DNA from: Candidatus Daviesbacteria bacterium
Lineage (GTDB): Bacteria > Patescibacteriota > Microgenomatia > Daviesbacterales > UBA10151
Assembly: GCA_016183245.1 (NCBI GenBank)
Contig: JACPEY010000035.1
Location: 1 to 33,788 of the forward strand
Length of the DNA: 33,788 bases
Direction of reading: 5' to 3'
The notes beneath the pieces were generated by a model, which was given only the letters and a program-made list of their open reading frames with translations, did no database searches and had not been told where the DNA came from. A program made the position numbers and the translations under genes. Positions 7,873 to 13,633 of this stretch are shown one piece after another. Within the stretch, counting starts at the first letter, position 1. Each line of letters starts with the position of its first letter.

Positions 7873-7885
7873 TTGGAGAGGTCGC
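7873..7885 (+). repeat. 13-bp direct repeat, right copy
   Basis: TTGGAGAGGTCGC, identical to 7547-7559. It covers 2 nt upstream plus the first 11 nt of the intact tRNA-Ser(GGA). Confidence 0.7.
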
Positions 7886-7959
7886 ATAGTGGCCTAGTGC
7901 GCGCGCTTGGAAAGCGCGTATACCGCAAGGTATCGAGGGTTCAAATCCCTCCCTCTCCG
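7875..7959 (+). tRNA. tRNA-Ser (GGA)
   Basis: Acceptor GGAGAGG/CCTCTCC, anticodon stem CGCGC/GCGCG around TTGGAAA giving GGA, long variable arm (TATACC-GCAA-GGTATC) diagnostic of serine, T-arm GAGGG-TTCAAAT-CCCTC, discriminator G. CCA is not encoded. Its 5' end is duplicated at 7547 and its 3' end at 8066. Confidence 0.95.
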
Positions 7960-7960
7960 C
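7943..7960 (+). repeat. 18-bp direct repeat, copy in the tRNA-Ser 3' end
   Basis: AAATCCCTCCCTCTCCGC forms the T-arm and acceptor 3' side of tRNA-Ser(GGA). It recurs exactly at 8066-8083, with 105 bp of hairpin-rich DNA between. Confidence 0.75.
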
Positions 7961-8020
7961 AGATTTCGAAGAAATCAAGGAGAGGAGAAAACAAACTGCT
8001 TTGTTTCGTGAGGATTTGAA

Positions 8021-8053
8021 GGGTTTTTCTTTATGCTTTGCATAGAAAAACCC
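8021..8053. repeat. Long hairpin between the 18-bp repeats
   Basis: GGGTTTTTC...GAAAAACCC arms continue inward to TATGC-TTT-GCATA, giving a stem of about 14 bp. It could terminate tRNA transcription or be part of the inserted segment 7961-8065. Confidence 0.6.
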
Positions 8054-8065
8054 AGGCCCGAAGGG

Positions 8066-8083
8066 AAATCCCTCCCTCTCCGC
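8066..8083 (+). repeat. 18-bp direct repeat, displaced tRNA-Ser 3' copy
   Basis: Exact copy of 7943-7960, the att-like 3' end of tRNA-Ser(GGA). It is not part of a complete tRNA. Confidence 0.75.
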
Positions 8084-8088
8084 CTTCG

Positions 8089-8146
8089 CCTCGCCGAAGT
8101 CCCGCTTAAGCGGGACGAAGGCGGGCTTCGCTGAAATTCGGCGAGG
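8089..8146. repeat. Cruciform-capable nested palindrome
   Basis: Outer arms CCTCGCCGAA (8089-8098) and TTCGGCGAGG (8137-8146) enclose an 18-bp perfect palindrome, GTCCCGCTTAAGCGGGAC (8099-8116). An alternative pairing is CGCCTTCG/CGAAGGCG (8081-8088, 8116-8123). It is GC-rich against AT-rich surroundings. Confidence 0.75.
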
Positions 8147-8172
8147 CTCCGGCGAGATAAATCCGCTAGGTG

Positions 8173-8178
8173 TATAAT
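8173..8178 (+). promoter_or_regulatory. -10 box for the cupin gene
   Basis: TATAAT ends 6 nt before the ATG at 8185, a leaderless arrangement. Confidence 0.5.
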
Positions 8179-8184
8179 CATTAA

Positions 8185-8536
8185 ATGATAAAGAAATTCA
8201 AAATTTTTAACATCTCCCAAGTGCCGTTCGAAAGCATTCATGATATGCCTAATTCCAGGCAAACTTTAGCCACAAAAGATGATCTTGTTTCTGATAATAT
8301 CGATGCACTAACAAAAGGTATGCTTCAATCAGGATCTAAATGGGATTGGCACAAACATGAACAATATGATGAACTAGGCATTGTTTTAAAAGGAAAAGGC
8401 AAATTTTATTGGAAAGATGAGATAGTTGAATATAAACCGGAAAGATGTAATCATTATTCCGGCAAATACTACCCATAAATTTGAAGCTAAAGGAAGGGAA
8501 ACCAGTGAGTTTTATTTCGTCCGAATTAAAGTATAA
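8185..8536 (+). pseudogene. Cupin-domain protein, frameshifted
   Basis: Residues 1-85 read as a small cupin: SGSKWDWHKHEQYDELGIVLKGKGKFYW contains the His-rich first cupin motif (H-x-H...E) and the Gly turn. Frame 1 then ends in a short wrong tail with a stop at 8476-8478. One base on, from about 8441, the next frame continues the fold: KDVIIIPANTTHKFEAKG (second cupin motif), then EFYFVRIKV and a TAA at 8534-8536. The shift lies at CCGGAAAGAT (about 8437-8446). It is either a true pseudogene or a sequencing/assembly error; a programmed frameshift is less likely. Cupins of this size bind metals or small molecules; the substrate is unknown. Confidence 0.75.
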
Positions 8537-8537
8537 T
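8532..8537 (+). promoter_or_regulatory. -10 box for the DUF5652-like gene
   Basis: TATAAT overlaps the cupin stop codon and ends 8 nt before the ATG at 8546. Leaderless configuration. Confidence 0.5.
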
Positions 8538-8545
8538 GTATTTAT

Positions 8546-8791
8546 ATGTTTAACTGGCAAATGCCGGATTTGGGGGCAGGAATATTTTTACTCATCATAT
8601 GGGAGATTTTTTGGAAAGGAGTCGGTCTTTGGAAATCTGCCAAAAAAGGTGACTTAATCTGGTTTGTGGCTATACTTTTGATTAACCTGTTTGGGATTAT
8701 CCCTCTTTTTTATCTTTGGAAAACCAAACAACTAGAACCAGCCCTCAAGGATATCCAAAATTTCTTCAAATCAAAGTTTAAGAAGAAGTAA
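8546..8791 (+). CDS. DUF5652-like small membrane protein
   Basis: An 81-residue protein with two hydrophobic helices. GIFLLIIWEIFWKGVGLWKSAKKGD is followed by LIWFVAILLINLFGIIPLFYLWK, with a Lys-rich tail. The W-E-x-x-W-K-G-x-G-L-W pattern and the second helix ending in Ile-Pro-x-x-Tyr-Leu match small CPR membrane proteins grouped as DUF5652 (from memory). No function is known. Its 3' end overlaps the convergent tlyA-like gene by 21 nt. Confidence 0.65.
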   Translation: MFNWQMPDLGAGIFLLIIWEIFWKGVGLWKSAKKGDLIWFVAILLINLFGIIPLFYLWKTKQLEPALKDIQNFFKSKFKKK

Positions 8792-9358
8792 ATATTCTTT
8801 GTTGCCTGCACCCCCCAAAATTGGTGAGTCCATGATTTCCTGTACCCTGTAACCTGTACCCTGTAACCTGGCCACTATCTCATTTCTCACTTCTTCAGCT
8901 CTTTCAGGAGGTAAAACCCCTTTGATTAAATCCTTTTTATCAGCTTGATATTGAGGTTTTAGTAAAGCAATAATAAAACCATCAGGTTTAAGAAATTTCT
9001 TTACAATAGGTAAAATCAATTCCAGCTTAGTCCAACCGGCATCAATGGTAATTAGGTTCACTGGCTCGGGTAAACTTTCTAAATGTAAAATATTAGTCCG
9101 TTCCATGACCACTACCCGCGGATCATTTCTTAACTTCCAGGCCAACTCCCCATAACAGGTATCTACGGCATAAACTTTTTTGGCACCGTTTTGCAGCAAA
9201 CAATCCACAAAACCACCAGTGGAAGATCCAACATCCAGACAGGTTAAATTTTCAATGTTCAATTTCCCCTGCCTGCCGGCAGGCAGGAATTTTTCAATCG
9301 CAGCCAGAAGCTTAATTCCACCCCGAGAAACGAATTGACTTTTGTCATTCTGAGGCAT
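8771..9358 (-). CDS. TlyA-like rRNA 2'-O-methyltransferase lacking the S4 domain
   Basis: The 195-residue product covers the FtsJ-type methyltransferase half of TlyA. It shows SRGGIKLLAAIEKF (family entry motif with the catalytic Lys), CLDVGSSTGGFVDCLLQNGA (SAM-binding loop), YAVDTCYGELAWKLRNDPRV, then TIDAGWTKL (usually D-V-S-F) and ALLKPQYQ (usually KPQFE). TlyA proteins normally begin with an S4 RNA-binding domain of about 60 residues; here it is missing. The first residues MPQNDKSQ are encoded by the end of a repeat element (9343-9432) that occupies the S4 position. A PAGRQG insertion at about residue 26 comes from a 20-bp palindrome. TlyA enzymes methylate 16S/23S rRNA ribose; loss of S4 may weaken rRNA binding. 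Confidence 0.8.
   Translation of the reverse strand: MPQNDKSQFVSRGGIKLLAAIEKFLPAGRQGKLNIENLTCLDVGSSTGGFVDCLLQNGAKKVYAVDTCYGELAWKLRNDPRVVVMERTNILHLESLPEPVNLITIDAGWTKLELILPIVKKFLKPDGFIIALLKPQYQADKKDLIKGVLPPERAEEVRNEIVARLQGTGYRVQEIMDSPILGGAGNKEYLLLLKL
9268..9287. repeat. 20-bp perfect palindrome inside tlyA
   Basis: CCTGCCTGCCGGCAGGCAGG, also found exactly at 24607-24626, with a related copy at 14496-14514. On the minus strand it encodes LPAGRQG in frame with the methyltransferase. Confidence 0.85.
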
Positions 9359-9432
9359 CGCCGAAGAATCTCTGAACTTGTTTCAGGAAGACTCGCATTT
9401 GCGAGAGATCCTTCGCTACGCTCAGGATGACA
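9343..9432. repeat. MITE-like element A, copy 1
   Basis: A 90-bp element with terminal inverted repeats TGTCATTCTGAG and CTCAGGATGACA (11 of 12 positions complementary). It supplies the start codon and first codons of the tlyA-like gene at its left end and the TGA stop of the NUDIX gene at its right end. Related copies: 10989-11041, 18787-18901, 24526-24638. Confidence 0.8.
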
Positions 9433-9835
9433 CCCCTTTCATTTCTAATGCTTTTCTAAGCAAGGATTTATCCTGAGAAAAAGTCAACTGCTTTAAAGCT
9501 TCCTCCGGCTCAAACCAGCCAATATCAGAAACTTCCCAGTCATGATCTTTGATATCTCCTGAGATATATTTCATCAAAAAATAAGTCACCACTTTAAATA
9601 CCTTCTCATCGTTAAAATGATAGACATACTTTGAATAACCTACTTTACCCACAATTTCCGCTTGCACCCCGCCCTCTTCCCTAACTTCTCTTAAAGCAGA
9701 CTCTTCCATAGTTTGTTCCGGATGATCTAGCAAACCCTTGGGGAAACTCCAGTGTTTGTTTTGAGAATGCTGGGTCACCAAAACTTGCCCTTTATCATTA
9801 AAAACTATACCGCCAGCAGAAAACTCCCGTTTCAT
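9422..9835 (-). CDS. NUDIX hydrolase
   Basis: A 137-residue NUDIX-fold pyrophosphatase. The N-terminal strand FSAGGIVFNDKGQVLVTQH and WSFPKG lead into the NUDIX box GLLDHPEQTMEESALREVREEGGV (split here only by function: metal-binding Glu residues are in REVREE). The box has one residue more than the consensus between the first Glu and the Arg-Glu. The Ap4A-hydrolase-like W-F-E-P-E-E-A-L motif occurs near the C-terminus. It cleaves nucleoside diphosphate-X substrates; the exact substrate is unresolved. The last residues (GVSS) and TGA stop come from element A. The ATG is followed by KREFSAGG, a normal family start. Confidence 0.88.
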   Translation of the reverse strand: MKREFSAGGIVFNDKGQVLVTQHSQNKHWSFPKGLLDHPEQTMEESALREVREEGGVQAEIVGKVGYSKYVYHFNDEKVFKVVTYFLMKYISGDIKDHDWEVSDIGWFEPEEALKQLTFSQDKSLLRKALEMKGVSS

Positions 9836-9874
9836 ATGTAATTACACTGCAATTATAGTACAATAACACCGCCT

Positions 9875-9947
9875 GCGCCCGTAGTTCAATGGACAGAACG
9901 CATGGTTGCGGTCCATGTGGTTGGGGGTTCGATTCCCTCCGGGCGCG
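9875..9947 (+). tRNA. tRNA-Arg (GCG)
   Basis: Acceptor GCGCCCG/CGGGCGC, anticodon stem CATGG/CCATG around TTGCGGT giving GCG, D-loop AATGGACA with the A20 identity base, T-arm GGGGG-TTCGATT-CCCTC, discriminator G. CCA is not encoded. GCG is unusual, since most bacteria read CGU/CGC with an edited ACG anticodon. Confidence 0.9.
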
Positions 9948-9972
9948 CACTTCACTATACTCCGAGTAAAAG

Positions 9973-10057
9973 GGTGGGGTCGCATAGTGGCCTAGTGCGC
10001 TGGTTTCGAAAACCGGTATACCGCAAGGTATCGTGAGTTCAAATCTCACCCCCACCG
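9973..10057 (+). tRNA. tRNA-Ser (CGA)
   Basis: Acceptor GGTGGGG/CCCCACC, anticodon loop TTCGAAA giving CGA, the same D-arm and long variable arm as tRNA-Ser(GGA) at 7875, T-arm GTGAG-TTCAAAT-CTCAC, discriminator G. CCA is not encoded. Confidence 0.93.
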
Positions 10058-10067
10058 CTACCAACAT

Positions 10068-10143
10068 GTGCCCGTAGCTTAATGGACAGAGCATCAGATT
10101 CCGGATCTGACGATTGGAGGTTCGAATCCTCTCGGGCACGCCA
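10068..10143 (+). tRNA. tRNA-Arg (CCG)
   Basis: Acceptor GTGCCCG/CGGGCAC, anticodon stem TCAGA/TCTGA around TTCCGGA giving CCG, D-loop with A20, T-arm GGAGG-TTCGAAT-CCTCT, discriminator G and encoded CCA (10141-10143). Confidence 0.93.
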
Positions 10144-10154
10144 AGGACGCATAT

Positions 10155-10757
10155 TTATCTATGGACGTTTTCTAAAGGGAAATGTTTTTGTAAAGATTCT
10201 GACCATTTTTCCATCCATGATTTATAGGGGACTTCAACATACGGCAGAAAACGGGCAACAACTTTTTTGATTTTTTCTTCATTTTCATTGCCCAACACTA
10301 GCATGAGTTGAGCCGGAAAACGCAGACGCGTCTGAATATGCAATATTGTTATTTTATCTTTCTCTTTAAACCAAAAAGCATCTAAAAAATGCCAAAAATA
10401 AAAGTCTTCCCCTATAGTTATACCCTGGGTGGAAATTTTATACCTGATATTGTGCGGCGGCACAAAAGCCAAAACATAAGTCACAAAAGCCACGGAAAGT
10501 ATGGCCCCAATCAACAAATAATCATGCAGCCAAAAAACAACAGTAAAAACTACCAATATGACTAAAATAGTAATTGTCGTGTAATATGAACGGTCTTTTT
10601 TCCGAAAAGGGCGGGATGGAGCTTCCCAGGAAAGTAAAGTCTTAATCTCTTCTGCTTCCATCATTTTAGGGGTAAAAAATTCAGGAGGAACAGACTGCAC
10701 CGGCCTTGGCGGCTGATTTTCCTTAGGTGGGTTGTGTTTAGGAGTATCTTTGGGCAT
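10155..10757 (-). CDS. Two-TM membrane protein with cytosolic flanks, unknown function
   Basis: A 200-residue protein. The first 60 residues are Pro-, Lys- and Glu-rich and probably disordered. Two adjacent membrane helices follow (TTITILVILVVFTVVFWL and LLIGAILSVAFVTYVLAF, about residues 60-100). A beta-rich C-terminal domain (YKISTQGITIGEDFYFWHFLDAFWF, given here in part, then ITILHIQTRLRF and LGNENEEKIKKVVARFLP) resembles the bacterial PH-like domains attached to membrane hairpins, but I cannot confirm the family. It lies among tRNA genes and has its own TTTACA/TAAACT promoter 8 nt before the ATG. Confidence 0.7.
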   Translation of the reverse strand: MPKDTPKHNPPKENQPPRPVQSVPPEFFTPKMMEAEEIKTLLSWEAPSRPFRKKDRSYYTTITILVILVVFTVVFWLHDYLLIGAILSVAFVTYVLAFVPPHNIRYKISTQGITIGEDFYFWHFLDAFWFKEKDKITILHIQTRLRFPAQLMLVLGNENEEKIKKVVARFLPYVEVPYKSWMEKWSESLQKHFPLENVHR

Positions 10758-10765
10758 TTGTTTTT

Positions 10766-10794
10766 AGTTTAACCTGAAAAGAATATTATGTAAA
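10766..10794 (-). promoter_or_regulatory. Promoter, leaderless configuration
   Basis: Minus strand -35 TTTACA (10789-10794), 17-bp spacer, -10 TAAACT (10766-10771), 8 nt to the ATG at 10757. Confidence 0.6.
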
Positions 10795-10795
10795 G

Positions 10796-10877
10796 CGGAG
10801 GAGGTGGGGGTCGAACCCACATGCCCTTTCAGACCCCAGTTTTCAAGACTGGTGAGCCACCATTGCTCAACTCCTCC
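10796..10877 (-). tRNA. tRNA-Ser (TGA)
   Basis: Minus strand: acceptor GGAGGAG/CTCCTCC, anticodon stem CCAGT/ACTGG around CTTGAAA giving TGA, long variable arm, T-arm GTGGG-TTCGACC-CCCAC, discriminator G. CCA is not encoded. Confidence 0.94.
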
Positions 10878-10882
10878 TTAAG

Positions 10883-10968
10883 CGGAGGGTACAGGATTCG
10901 AACCTGTGGACGGCTATTCACCGTCGCGGATTAGCAATCCGCTCCATTAACCACTCTGGCAACCCTCC
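10883..10968 (-). tRNA. tRNA-Ser (GCT)
   Basis: Minus strand: acceptor GGAGGGT/ACCCTCC, anticodon stem GCGGA/TCCGC around TTGCTAA giving GCT, long variable arm GACGG...CCGTC, T-arm ACAGG-TTCGAAT-CCTGT, discriminator G. It is transcribed 5 bp upstream of tRNA-Ser(TGA), probably together. Confidence 0.94.
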
Positions 10969-11788: not shown

Positions 11789-13198
11789 TTATTCTGAACG
11801 TTCGTAAACCGTACCAGTTTGGTCTTCATAAACCTTTTGCCACTTAGCTTTTTGAAGTCTGTCTTCAAAGCCTTCTATATGTTTGTTTTTAGGCCAAAGG
11901 ACAAACTGCACTTGATATTTATCCAAAATTTTCAACCCGTCAATATTGTTTAACACCTGATCATATTCATCAAAAGCTGCAGAACTTTCCTGCTGGTAAG
12001 GCGCCTGCCATCTCCAGGAAGGCATCCTGCCATCTACAAAAACTTTTTGTTCAGGCAGTTTCCAAATCAAATACCCGCCCCAATGATAACTGCTAAAAAT
12101 TCTCCCTGACCGGGAGCGTTGCTTTAGAAACTGCACAGCCTGTTGAGGATAAAAATTTTTTTCCTGCCGCTTTTTTAAATCTCCGACATAGAAAAAAGCT
12201 TCCAAGGCTAAAAAGAAAAAAGCAGCTATCAGAAATACTTTATATGCTTTATTAAACCTTTCCTGGGCAAACTTAATATTGCCAATTTCCTTATAGAAAA
12301 ATCCCAGGGTTTGAATAGTCAAAGGCAATGCTGTCAAAACCCAAAGAGGGGTATGCCTTCGGCTGGACAAACCTGCCAGCATCAAAAAGACGTAAAGGCT
12401 TATTTGCGTTAAAGTCAGCTTTGATCTGTAACGGTAAATTAAAATACCGGATAAAACAGCAAGCGGCATAAAAGCAAGCAGCGCCCAATCAAGGCCCAGA
12501 AAAAGCGGAATCCATTCCATGATAGCCGAGCGGAGATTATTATCAGACAACTGCTGCCAGACTTCTTTCCATAAATTAAACCCATATGGATTGAGCAGGG
12601 TTACCAATATAGAGGACAGGACTACGACTAAATCGCTTGTGAAGATCTTCCGCTGAACCAGGCTTTTTAAGGCTGAAACAAAAATTAATATTACCAGTCC
12701 TAAAACAAAACCACCATGCAGATTAGCCCAAAGCACAAAATAAACAGGCAAAAACCACCTCCATTTTACCCAAAGACGATCATCAGTGACAACTTTAAGT
12801 AAAACTGCAGTTAAAGCCCATGTTTCAACTTGCGGCCTAACTCCCAAAAAAGGCAGCAGCACGGCACAAGCAAGCAGAAACGGAGCCAGCGCAAAAGCGC
12901 TGCCTTCATTCTGCGGTTTAACTACCAAAAGGGCAAGTAAAGCAATTGCTGCAAACAGCAAAGCCATGACTGCCATGCCAACATTTTGATAAAGGTCATA
13001 AAAAATAATGTTAGTCAGCCATTCATGGTCTACAAAAGGAAAACTCGGCATGGTGTAAGAAAAAGGGTCGGTTGAAGGAATGCCCTGCCTGGAAATTAAT
13101 TCCCCCAGCTTCAAATGCCAGCCAAAATCAGGATCAAGGAAGGTCAGGTTATTAACAAAGAAGACCACCAGCACAAATAGAATGATTGCAATATGCAC
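11789..13198 (-). CDS. GT-C-like polytopic membrane protein
   Basis: A 469-residue protein with about ten hydrophobic helices. After the first helix comes DPDFGWHLKLGELISRQGIP, then DPFSYTMPSFPFVDHEWL, a loop with Asp/His residues typical of the first extracytoplasmic loop in GT-C glycosyltransferases that use lipid-linked sugars. GVRPQVETW and NLHGGF occur in later loops. The C-terminal 110 residues form a soluble domain (GRIFSSYHWGGYLIWKLP, KVFVDGRMPSW, then a Trp/Lys-rich end). It probably acts in the cytoplasmic membrane in cell-surface glycosylation, but donor and acceptor are unknown. Its ATG lies 18 nt after the tmRNA 3' end, so transcription may read through from smpB-ssrA. Confidence 0.7.
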   Translation of the reverse strand: MHIAIILFVLVVFFVNNLTFLDPDFGWHLKLGELISRQGIPSTDPFSYTMPSFPFVDHEWLTNIIFYDLYQNVGMAVMALLFAAIALLALLVVKPQNEGSAFALAPFLLACAVLLPFLGVRPQVETWALTAVLLKVVTDDRLWVKWRWFLPVYFVLWANLHGGFVLGLVILIFVSALKSLVQRKIFTSDLVVVLSSILVTLLNPYGFNLWKEVWQQLSDNNLRSAIMEWIPLFLGLDWALLAFMPLAVLSGILIYRYRSKLTLTQISLYVFLMLAGLSSRRHTPLWVLTALPLTIQTLGFFYKEIGNIKFAQERFNKAYKVFLIAAFFFLALEAFFYVGDLKKRQEKNFYPQQAVQFLKQRSRSGRIFSSYHWGGYLIWKLPEQKVFVDGRMPSWRWQAPYQQESSAAFDEYDQVLNNIDGLKILDKYQVQFVLWPKNKHIEGFEDRLQKAKWQKVYEDQTGTVYERSE

Positions 13199-13216: not shown

Positions 13217-13633
13217 TGGTGGAGATGCCCCGCTGTGAGCGGGGGTCCAAAATTGTTACTTAAAAATCTTCTACAAGCTTAGCTAATTAATTTTTGTTCA
13301 TCAGTTGTAACCAATTAGCAGGAAAACTAATGAATGATTGAATTGTCTTTTGCAATTTTGGATCAACCAACACCAAAATTGCAGCATCCTGACTTTGTAC
13401 GTACCTTAGTATCCCGTCAGAAAGAGGATAAATTCTAAAGCACCCTTTTAAGAAAAGGCTGGGGCAGCGGTAAAGCTACCTTGACCTAGTAAAGCCATAA
13501 GGCCTTGCATTTTACCCTCAAGGGAACGAGCAATTTTATTGCCGTTTGTGTTTTGAAACAATATTTTACGCTTAATGTTTCCTGAGCGGCTTGCAGTTTT
13601 TAAAGAGCAATCCTGTCGAAACTATACATCCCC
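13217..13633 (-). ncRNA. ssrA: tmRNA (ssrA)
   Basis: The 417-nt gene, minus strand, rescues stalled ribosomes with SmpB. The 5' end GGGGATG-TATAGTTTCGACAGG is the canonical tmRNA start and pairs with CATCTCC at the 3' end, followed by A and an encoded CCA (13217-13219). The likely tag reading frame runs from a GGC resume codon at 13541-13543 to TAA at 13448-13450. It has 31 codons, beginning GNKIARSLEGK and ending GSFTAAPAFS, longer than the usual 8-15 and hydrophobic at the end, as degradation tags are. The T-arm is CCCCG/CGGGG with loop CTCACAG; it keeps the T55-C56 equivalent but not the T54/A58 pair. It lies 47 bp downstream of smpB with its own promoter. Confidence 0.9.

Follow-up and report, generated by a model that had tools for sequence, protein, structure and literature searches.

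In tRNAs the elbow is built by the GG of the D strand, which contacts the T-loop through G18-Psi55 and G19-C56, together with the U54-A58 pair. The hairpin loop of the tmRNA T arm lies at the elbow and is usually invariant. Isolated exceptions were described in 2005, namely a UU to GG change in the mitochondrial tmRNA of Reclinomonas and a U342 to G change in Caulobacter (PMC1168896). The 2025 paper on the tmRNA database, as far as its accessible text goes, mentions T-loops only for introns and gives 10 aa as the modal tag length (PMC11915505). In the open literature, itself an incomplete record, we found no paper on a tmRNA or tRNA T-loop change in Patescibacteria, Microgenomates or CPR; it is very likely that the tmRNA database holds such sequences. 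As for the fate of the tagged proteins, in Mycoplasma they are degraded by Lon, the protease set being Lon and FtsH without ClpXP, and in M. florum the protease of the tag is likewise Lon (PMC8138137).

The DNA analysed here, a stretch of 33,788 nucleotides that we call the window, belongs to a Daviesbacteria/Microgenomates-type Patescibacterium whose genome is available as a 73-contig draft, 90% complete. A preliminary description had placed a tmRNA gene in it and had named a covariance-model search (Infernal, Rfam tmRNA) as one check. Indeed, cmscan matches RF00023 end to end (model 1-374 of 374, 110.2 bits, E 1.8e-42, gathering score 47) at 13633..13217 of the minus strand, and this is the sole match above cut-off in the 1.08 Mb genome (Table 1). 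Like the standard one-piece tmRNA, the gene has an alanine-type acceptor stem, GGGGAUG/CAUCUCC, with G3.U70 and a genomic ACCA after it, a pseudoknot region, a tag frame with its stop at the conserved resume place and an SmpB partner encoded in the genome. Judged by its sequence, it is a genuine ribosome-rescue RNA (tmRNA) gene. It differs from the standard molecule by a T-loop without U54 and A58, a D-loop without the first G of GG, and a 31-aa tag where the modal length is 10. The 7-nt U54-A58 loop is typical of tmRNAs, although the RF00023 model does not require it and accepts the sequence; the CTCACAG loop marks a tmRNA variant, not a non-member, and the gene belongs to a known family, its elbow being what is unusual. 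A phage origin was considered and discarded, as no similar DNA was found in 50,697 phage records.

Table 1. Features of the tmRNA locus (window positions)
Feature	Position	Strand	Remarks
tmRNA (ssrA) gene, 417 nt with genomic ACCA	13217..13633	-	RF00023 full length
Acceptor stem, 5' strand GGGGAUG, has G3 of G3.U70	13627..13633	-	pairs with CAUCUCC 13227-13221
D-loop strand UAUAGUU-UCGAC	13615..13626	-	canonical GG (18-19) reads A13623 G13622
Possible hairpin with resume codon, AACG GCAAU AAA AUUGC U CGUU	13525..13546	-	9/9 pairs here
Predicted tag frame GNKIARSLEGKMQGLMALLGQGSFTAAPAFS, 31 aa	13448..13543	-	GGC 13543 opens, TAA 13450-13448 closes
T arm, stem CCCCG/CGGGG + C54:G60 + UCACA pentaloop (proposed reading)	13228..13244	-	sequence, relatives, covariation
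Acceptor stem, 3' strand CAUCUCC + ACCA	13217..13227	-	read from sequence
smpB, 146 aa	13681..14121	-	47 nt upstream of tmRNA, same direction

In the standard reading of the T-arm region (GGAC CCCCG CTCACAG CGGGG CATCTCC ACCA), the 7-nt loop lies at 13239-13233 and C stands at both position 54 and position 58, so that the U54-A58 pair is impossible, as had been noticed at the outset. The preliminary description had also foreseen that relatives might expose CTCACAG as a sequencing error. The draft state of the genome leaves room for an error of sequencing or assembly, but the same loop is found in an unrelated family (G118), nine genomes of the family carry UCACA as a 5-nt loop, and the flanking stem is fully compensated; this explanation is refuted by the relatives and we give it practically no weight.

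The relatives were sampled in the form of tmRNAs from 105 class genomes, with 86 more from elsewhere in the phylum; 103 and 84 loops, respectively, were parsed. tmRNAs without a 7-nt U54...A58 loop make up 66/103 in the class versus 5/84 in the rest of the phylum. Within the family (n=35) the loop has 5 nt in 16 tmRNAs, 6 nt in 4 and 7 nt in 15, the 5-nt loops being UCACA, UCACU, UCAAU and UCAUA. The commonest short arm, UCGGC UCACA GCCGA, carries the same UCACA as the Daviesbacteria gene, which has one C:G pair more beneath it. Every one of the 35 family tmRNAs has a fully paired T-stem, for which 12 different sequences are used; the T arm is therefore under selection.

We then considered 34 distinct non-canonical arms with 7-nt loops, an alignment that leaves out four more distinct arms (those beginning with AGC or GGC, and GGAAGAG of family f30). 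When 54:60 is counted into the stem, 93% of its six pairs form in this set, and the covariation is 0.859 versus 0.212 after shuffling (0/500). For 54:60 alone the values are 0.510 versus 0.152 (0/500), with GC, UA, UG, AU and CG all seen, and a plain permutation on the 28 distinct loop sequences gives p=0.018, whereas 54:58 displays neither pairing nor covariation. The lower five pairs are always kept, with many compensatory changes, while C56 is invariant and U55 and A57 are nearly so. The sixth pair is common, not universal: 14 of the 34 positions 54:60 hold non-standard pairs, mostly C.A. On energy alone, the favoured fold is even a stem of 7 bp and a CAC triloop.

Could the arm nevertheless adopt the standard 7-nt fold, with an unusual C.C 54.58 pair and an elbow effectively unchanged? 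The constancy of U55, C56 and A57 at their positions fits such a fold, as do the 17-nt arms kept by G000 and several relatives. However, it is the 54:60 and not the 54:58 combination that pairs and covaries, the 5- and 6-nt loops of the same genus cannot adopt a 7-nt fold, and G18 is lost in step with the T-loop change, all of which makes the standard fold quite improbable. The covariation of 54:60, added to the 5-nt length of 16 of the 35 family loops, argues instead for reading CTCACAG as a putative sixth T-stem pair, C:G, that closes a UCACA pentaloop, in preference to a broken 7-nt T-loop.

The D-loop accompanies this change. In the Daviesbacteria tmRNA the equivalent of G19 is kept and that of G18 is A, together with the UCACA loop. 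Across the 187 tmRNAs, loops with U54-U55...A58 go with GG in 71 cases versus 3 without, and the other loops with GG in 5 cases versus 108 without (Fisher 2e-41); among the 7-nt U54-A58 loops, the combinations G55/A18, G55/G18, U55/A18 and U55/G18 occur 35, 2, 0 and 71 times (Fisher 2e-26), both values ignoring shared ancestry and kinship being addressed at the family level, by family counts. Thus A18-G55 is spread over 17 families and G18-U55 over 48, f57 having both. GG accompanies UUCNA and AG accompanies UGCNA, and the rebuilt loops hardly ever come with GG, the assignment of D-loop positions depending on the alignment where D-loop length varies; when placed two bases from UCGAC, the distance found in most sequences, the two G18/G55 exceptions give AG. 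Taken together, these sequences indicate that in most of the class the T-loop of 7 nt, with U54-A58 and with U55 facing G18, is replaced by a UCA-built loop, the D-loop GG having become NG. The UCA loops close either by the extra 54:60 pair, C:G here, or in a shortened 15-nt arm.

These data bear on the expectation that the gene should lack the elbow. The U54-A58 pair is absent as had been stated, but the D-loop has changed with the T-loop while G19 and C56 are kept, which argues for an elbow rebuilt rather than lost. An erosion of the T-loop by relaxed selection in a reduced genome, with SmpB making the elbow unnecessary so that the loop sequence hardly matters, would account for the many different loop sequences of the class and for the GGAAGAG loop, without U55 and C56, of two f30 genomes (visible by eye in both sequences, correctly parsed in one). 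Decay of this kind seems rather unlikely to us, since the aligned arms, a set without the few arms that lack the UC core (f30 among them), show C56 unchanged and U55 and A57 almost so, since 54:60 covaries, and since random erosion does not predict the joint change of D-loop and T-loop state seen in many families.

Two groups of tmRNAs depart further from the standard. The f30 members L018 and L021 (G136 and G096) combine the GGAAGAG loop with a D strand devoid of GG, and all of their standard elbow contacts appear to be gone. In L255, L240, L260, L252 and L209 (G151, G225, G238, G212 and G263), a UUUAACU loop, in which C56 has become U, always comes with a D strand readable as G18 A19. This is possibly an exchange of G-C for A-U at 19:56; alternatively, the GG is shifted by one.

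Within the window, the change is confined to the tmRNA. The seven tRNAs of the window are canonical, with GG and a UUC-R-A loop, and keep all three elbow contacts; the tmRNA shares with them the G19 and C56 positions, but it alone has lost 18-55 and 54-58 in their standard form. The exceptions of 2005 likewise involve changed bases at T-loop positions 54/55 (PMC1168896), but the Daviesbacteria-type change differs from them by being class-wide and by the shortening to 5 nt, the 54:60 pair and the matched D-loop change. We also observed that four tRNA-Ser genes (GGA, CGA, TGA, GCT) and two tRNA-Arg genes are gathered within 3.1 kb of the window (7875-10968).

Loss of TruB, the Psi55 synthase, might be thought to have caused the T-loop change. 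The enzyme is absent from the host genome and from 119/138 class relatives (G000-G137), and present in 96/145 genomes when the phylum is sampled more widely, with about ten class members among them. However, within the class a hand count finds the non-canonical loop about as often in TruB-positive (7/12) as in TruB-negative genomes; there being no association, TruB loss was rejected as the cause and we regard it as very improbable. Despite the absence of TruB, the tRNAs of the window retain U55.

The tag frame also stood up to the alignment. The conserved resume site in the family is CAAAACACAAAC immediately followed by GGC, and the relatives keep the resume codon at GGC 13543, where it had been proposed with a 31-aa tag ending in APAFS; the possibility raised beforehand, that an alignment would place it elsewhere, did not come true. 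A resume codon ACA two codons upstream, by analogy with the GCA of E. coli, was discarded, as class alignments put GCN/GGN after A-A-N-[CT]. The C-terminal half of the tag matches AKDKLASRVQGLMALMGQGQFAPALA, the tag of G029, from another genus of the same family; the tag frame is therefore conserved, and APAFS corresponds to APALA. Tag lengths are 25-38 aa in the same genus (median 31, n=11), 10-40 aa in the family (median 26) and 11-36 aa in the rest of the class (median 25), for frames chosen by a rule favouring 8-45 aa and small hydrophobic ends, some being set by hand; the lengths are fair for genus and family, where they were checked by alignment; outside the class, where some of the chosen frames begin 3' of the true resume codon, they are rough. 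The predicted 31-aa tag is thus long against the database mode of 10 aa and ordinary in its own lineage. The earlier statement that it has two to three times the usual length holds against that mode (PMC11915505), but not against the same-genus range.

The resume codon may lie within a 9-bp hairpin with a bulge, kept in many family members through changed pairs: 7-9 of the 9 pairs form in about half of them. A similar element in other tmRNAs is helix m, which is itself weakly supported (PMC1168896).

Which protease would read this tag? In the host genome, 90% complete, ClpP has no match and nothing scores above the cut-off for ClpX, both absences being provisional, while full-length Lon and FtsH are encoded; the Mycoplasma-type situation, Lon present without ClpXP, is thus provisionally found here. 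Lon as the reader of the 31-aa tag is a reasonable and likely inference. That the long tag is itself an adaptation to the loss of ClpXP, with a switch to Lon as in Mesoplasma, is a more tentative proposal, to which we give somewhat less than an even chance. Besides the host protease set and the role of Lon in M. florum (PMC8138137), it is favoured by the 27-aa Mollicute tags recovered by ARAGORN, which end in AFA or VFA, and by the class itself: a clear ClpP (>150 bits) is present in 8/138 genomes, and in the seven whose tmRNA is readable the tag measures 12-14 aa versus a median of 26 elsewhere in the class (p=0.0004), though these seven come from three families only. Outside the class, however, most genomes have ClpP, ClpP-positive tags are also near 20 aa, and tag length shows no dependence on ClpP (p=0.18, with rough frames). 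As an explanation of tag length, ClpXP loss therefore holds within the class and fails outside. The likeness to the Lon-read tags of Mycoplasma and Mesoplasma lies in the long tag, the hydrophobic end and the Lon and FtsH set without ClpXP (PMC8138137). These lineages are unrelated, however; the Daviesbacteria tag ends in AFS and theirs in AFA, and its reading by Lon is putative.

The SmpB protein is complete in appearance, and its nearest named relatives are from Candidatus Daviesbacteria and other Microgenomates genomes. It can be aligned over its whole length with E. coli SmpB, the C-terminal KKEFDKRKIIKERD region being retained. In a by-eye comparison we found no clear SmpB residue that tracks the T-loop type, and a single residue separating the two loop types was dropped as an idea. 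On the other side of the gene, just 3' of the tmRNA end, a 9-nt inverted repeat, ATAGAATGA / TCATTCTAT (13211-13177), spans the GTG at 13198 with which the next ORF begins; it is possibly a terminator or a processing signal.

Our preferred explanation, which we consider probable, is that the product of this locus is a functional RNA for trans-translation in a Microgenomates bacterium, its tRNA-like elbow having been rebuilt. AlaRS would charge it through G3.U70, and on stalled ribosomes it would add Ala and the 31-residue tag; since no ClpXP was detected, the tagged protein may then be handed to Lon or FtsH. In the elbow, the G19-C56 contact would still dock the D strand on the T arm, the G18-Psi55 and U54-A58 parts being presumably gone or replaced, and SmpB may hold, tolerate or support the structure. 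In lineages with 7-nt loops, an A18.G55 combination would stand in place of G18-U55. The general form of this model, for which we see a little better than an even chance, is that the Microgenomates elbow has been rebuilt with a T stem of 6 bp (or 5 bp) that carries a UCANN pentaloop, G19-C56 being the main contact that holds the D strand, and that elsewhere in Patescibacteria A18.G55 replaces G18-Psi55. As the tmRNA has changed and the tRNAs of the same genome have kept the standard elbow, SmpB would have to tolerate or compensate for a different elbow.

In conclusion, two consequences follow for these bacteria. ARAGORN, run on the window, returned the seven tRNAs and not the tmRNA; in the class genomes G000-G137 it recovered 26/37 tmRNAs with standard U54-A58 loops versus 1/68 with other loops. 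ARAGORN-based annotation will therefore report the tmRNA as absent, and such an absence can be an artefact. On the other hand, a co-changed elbow contact in so large a clade would offer natural double mutants for testing which of the elbow contacts matter.
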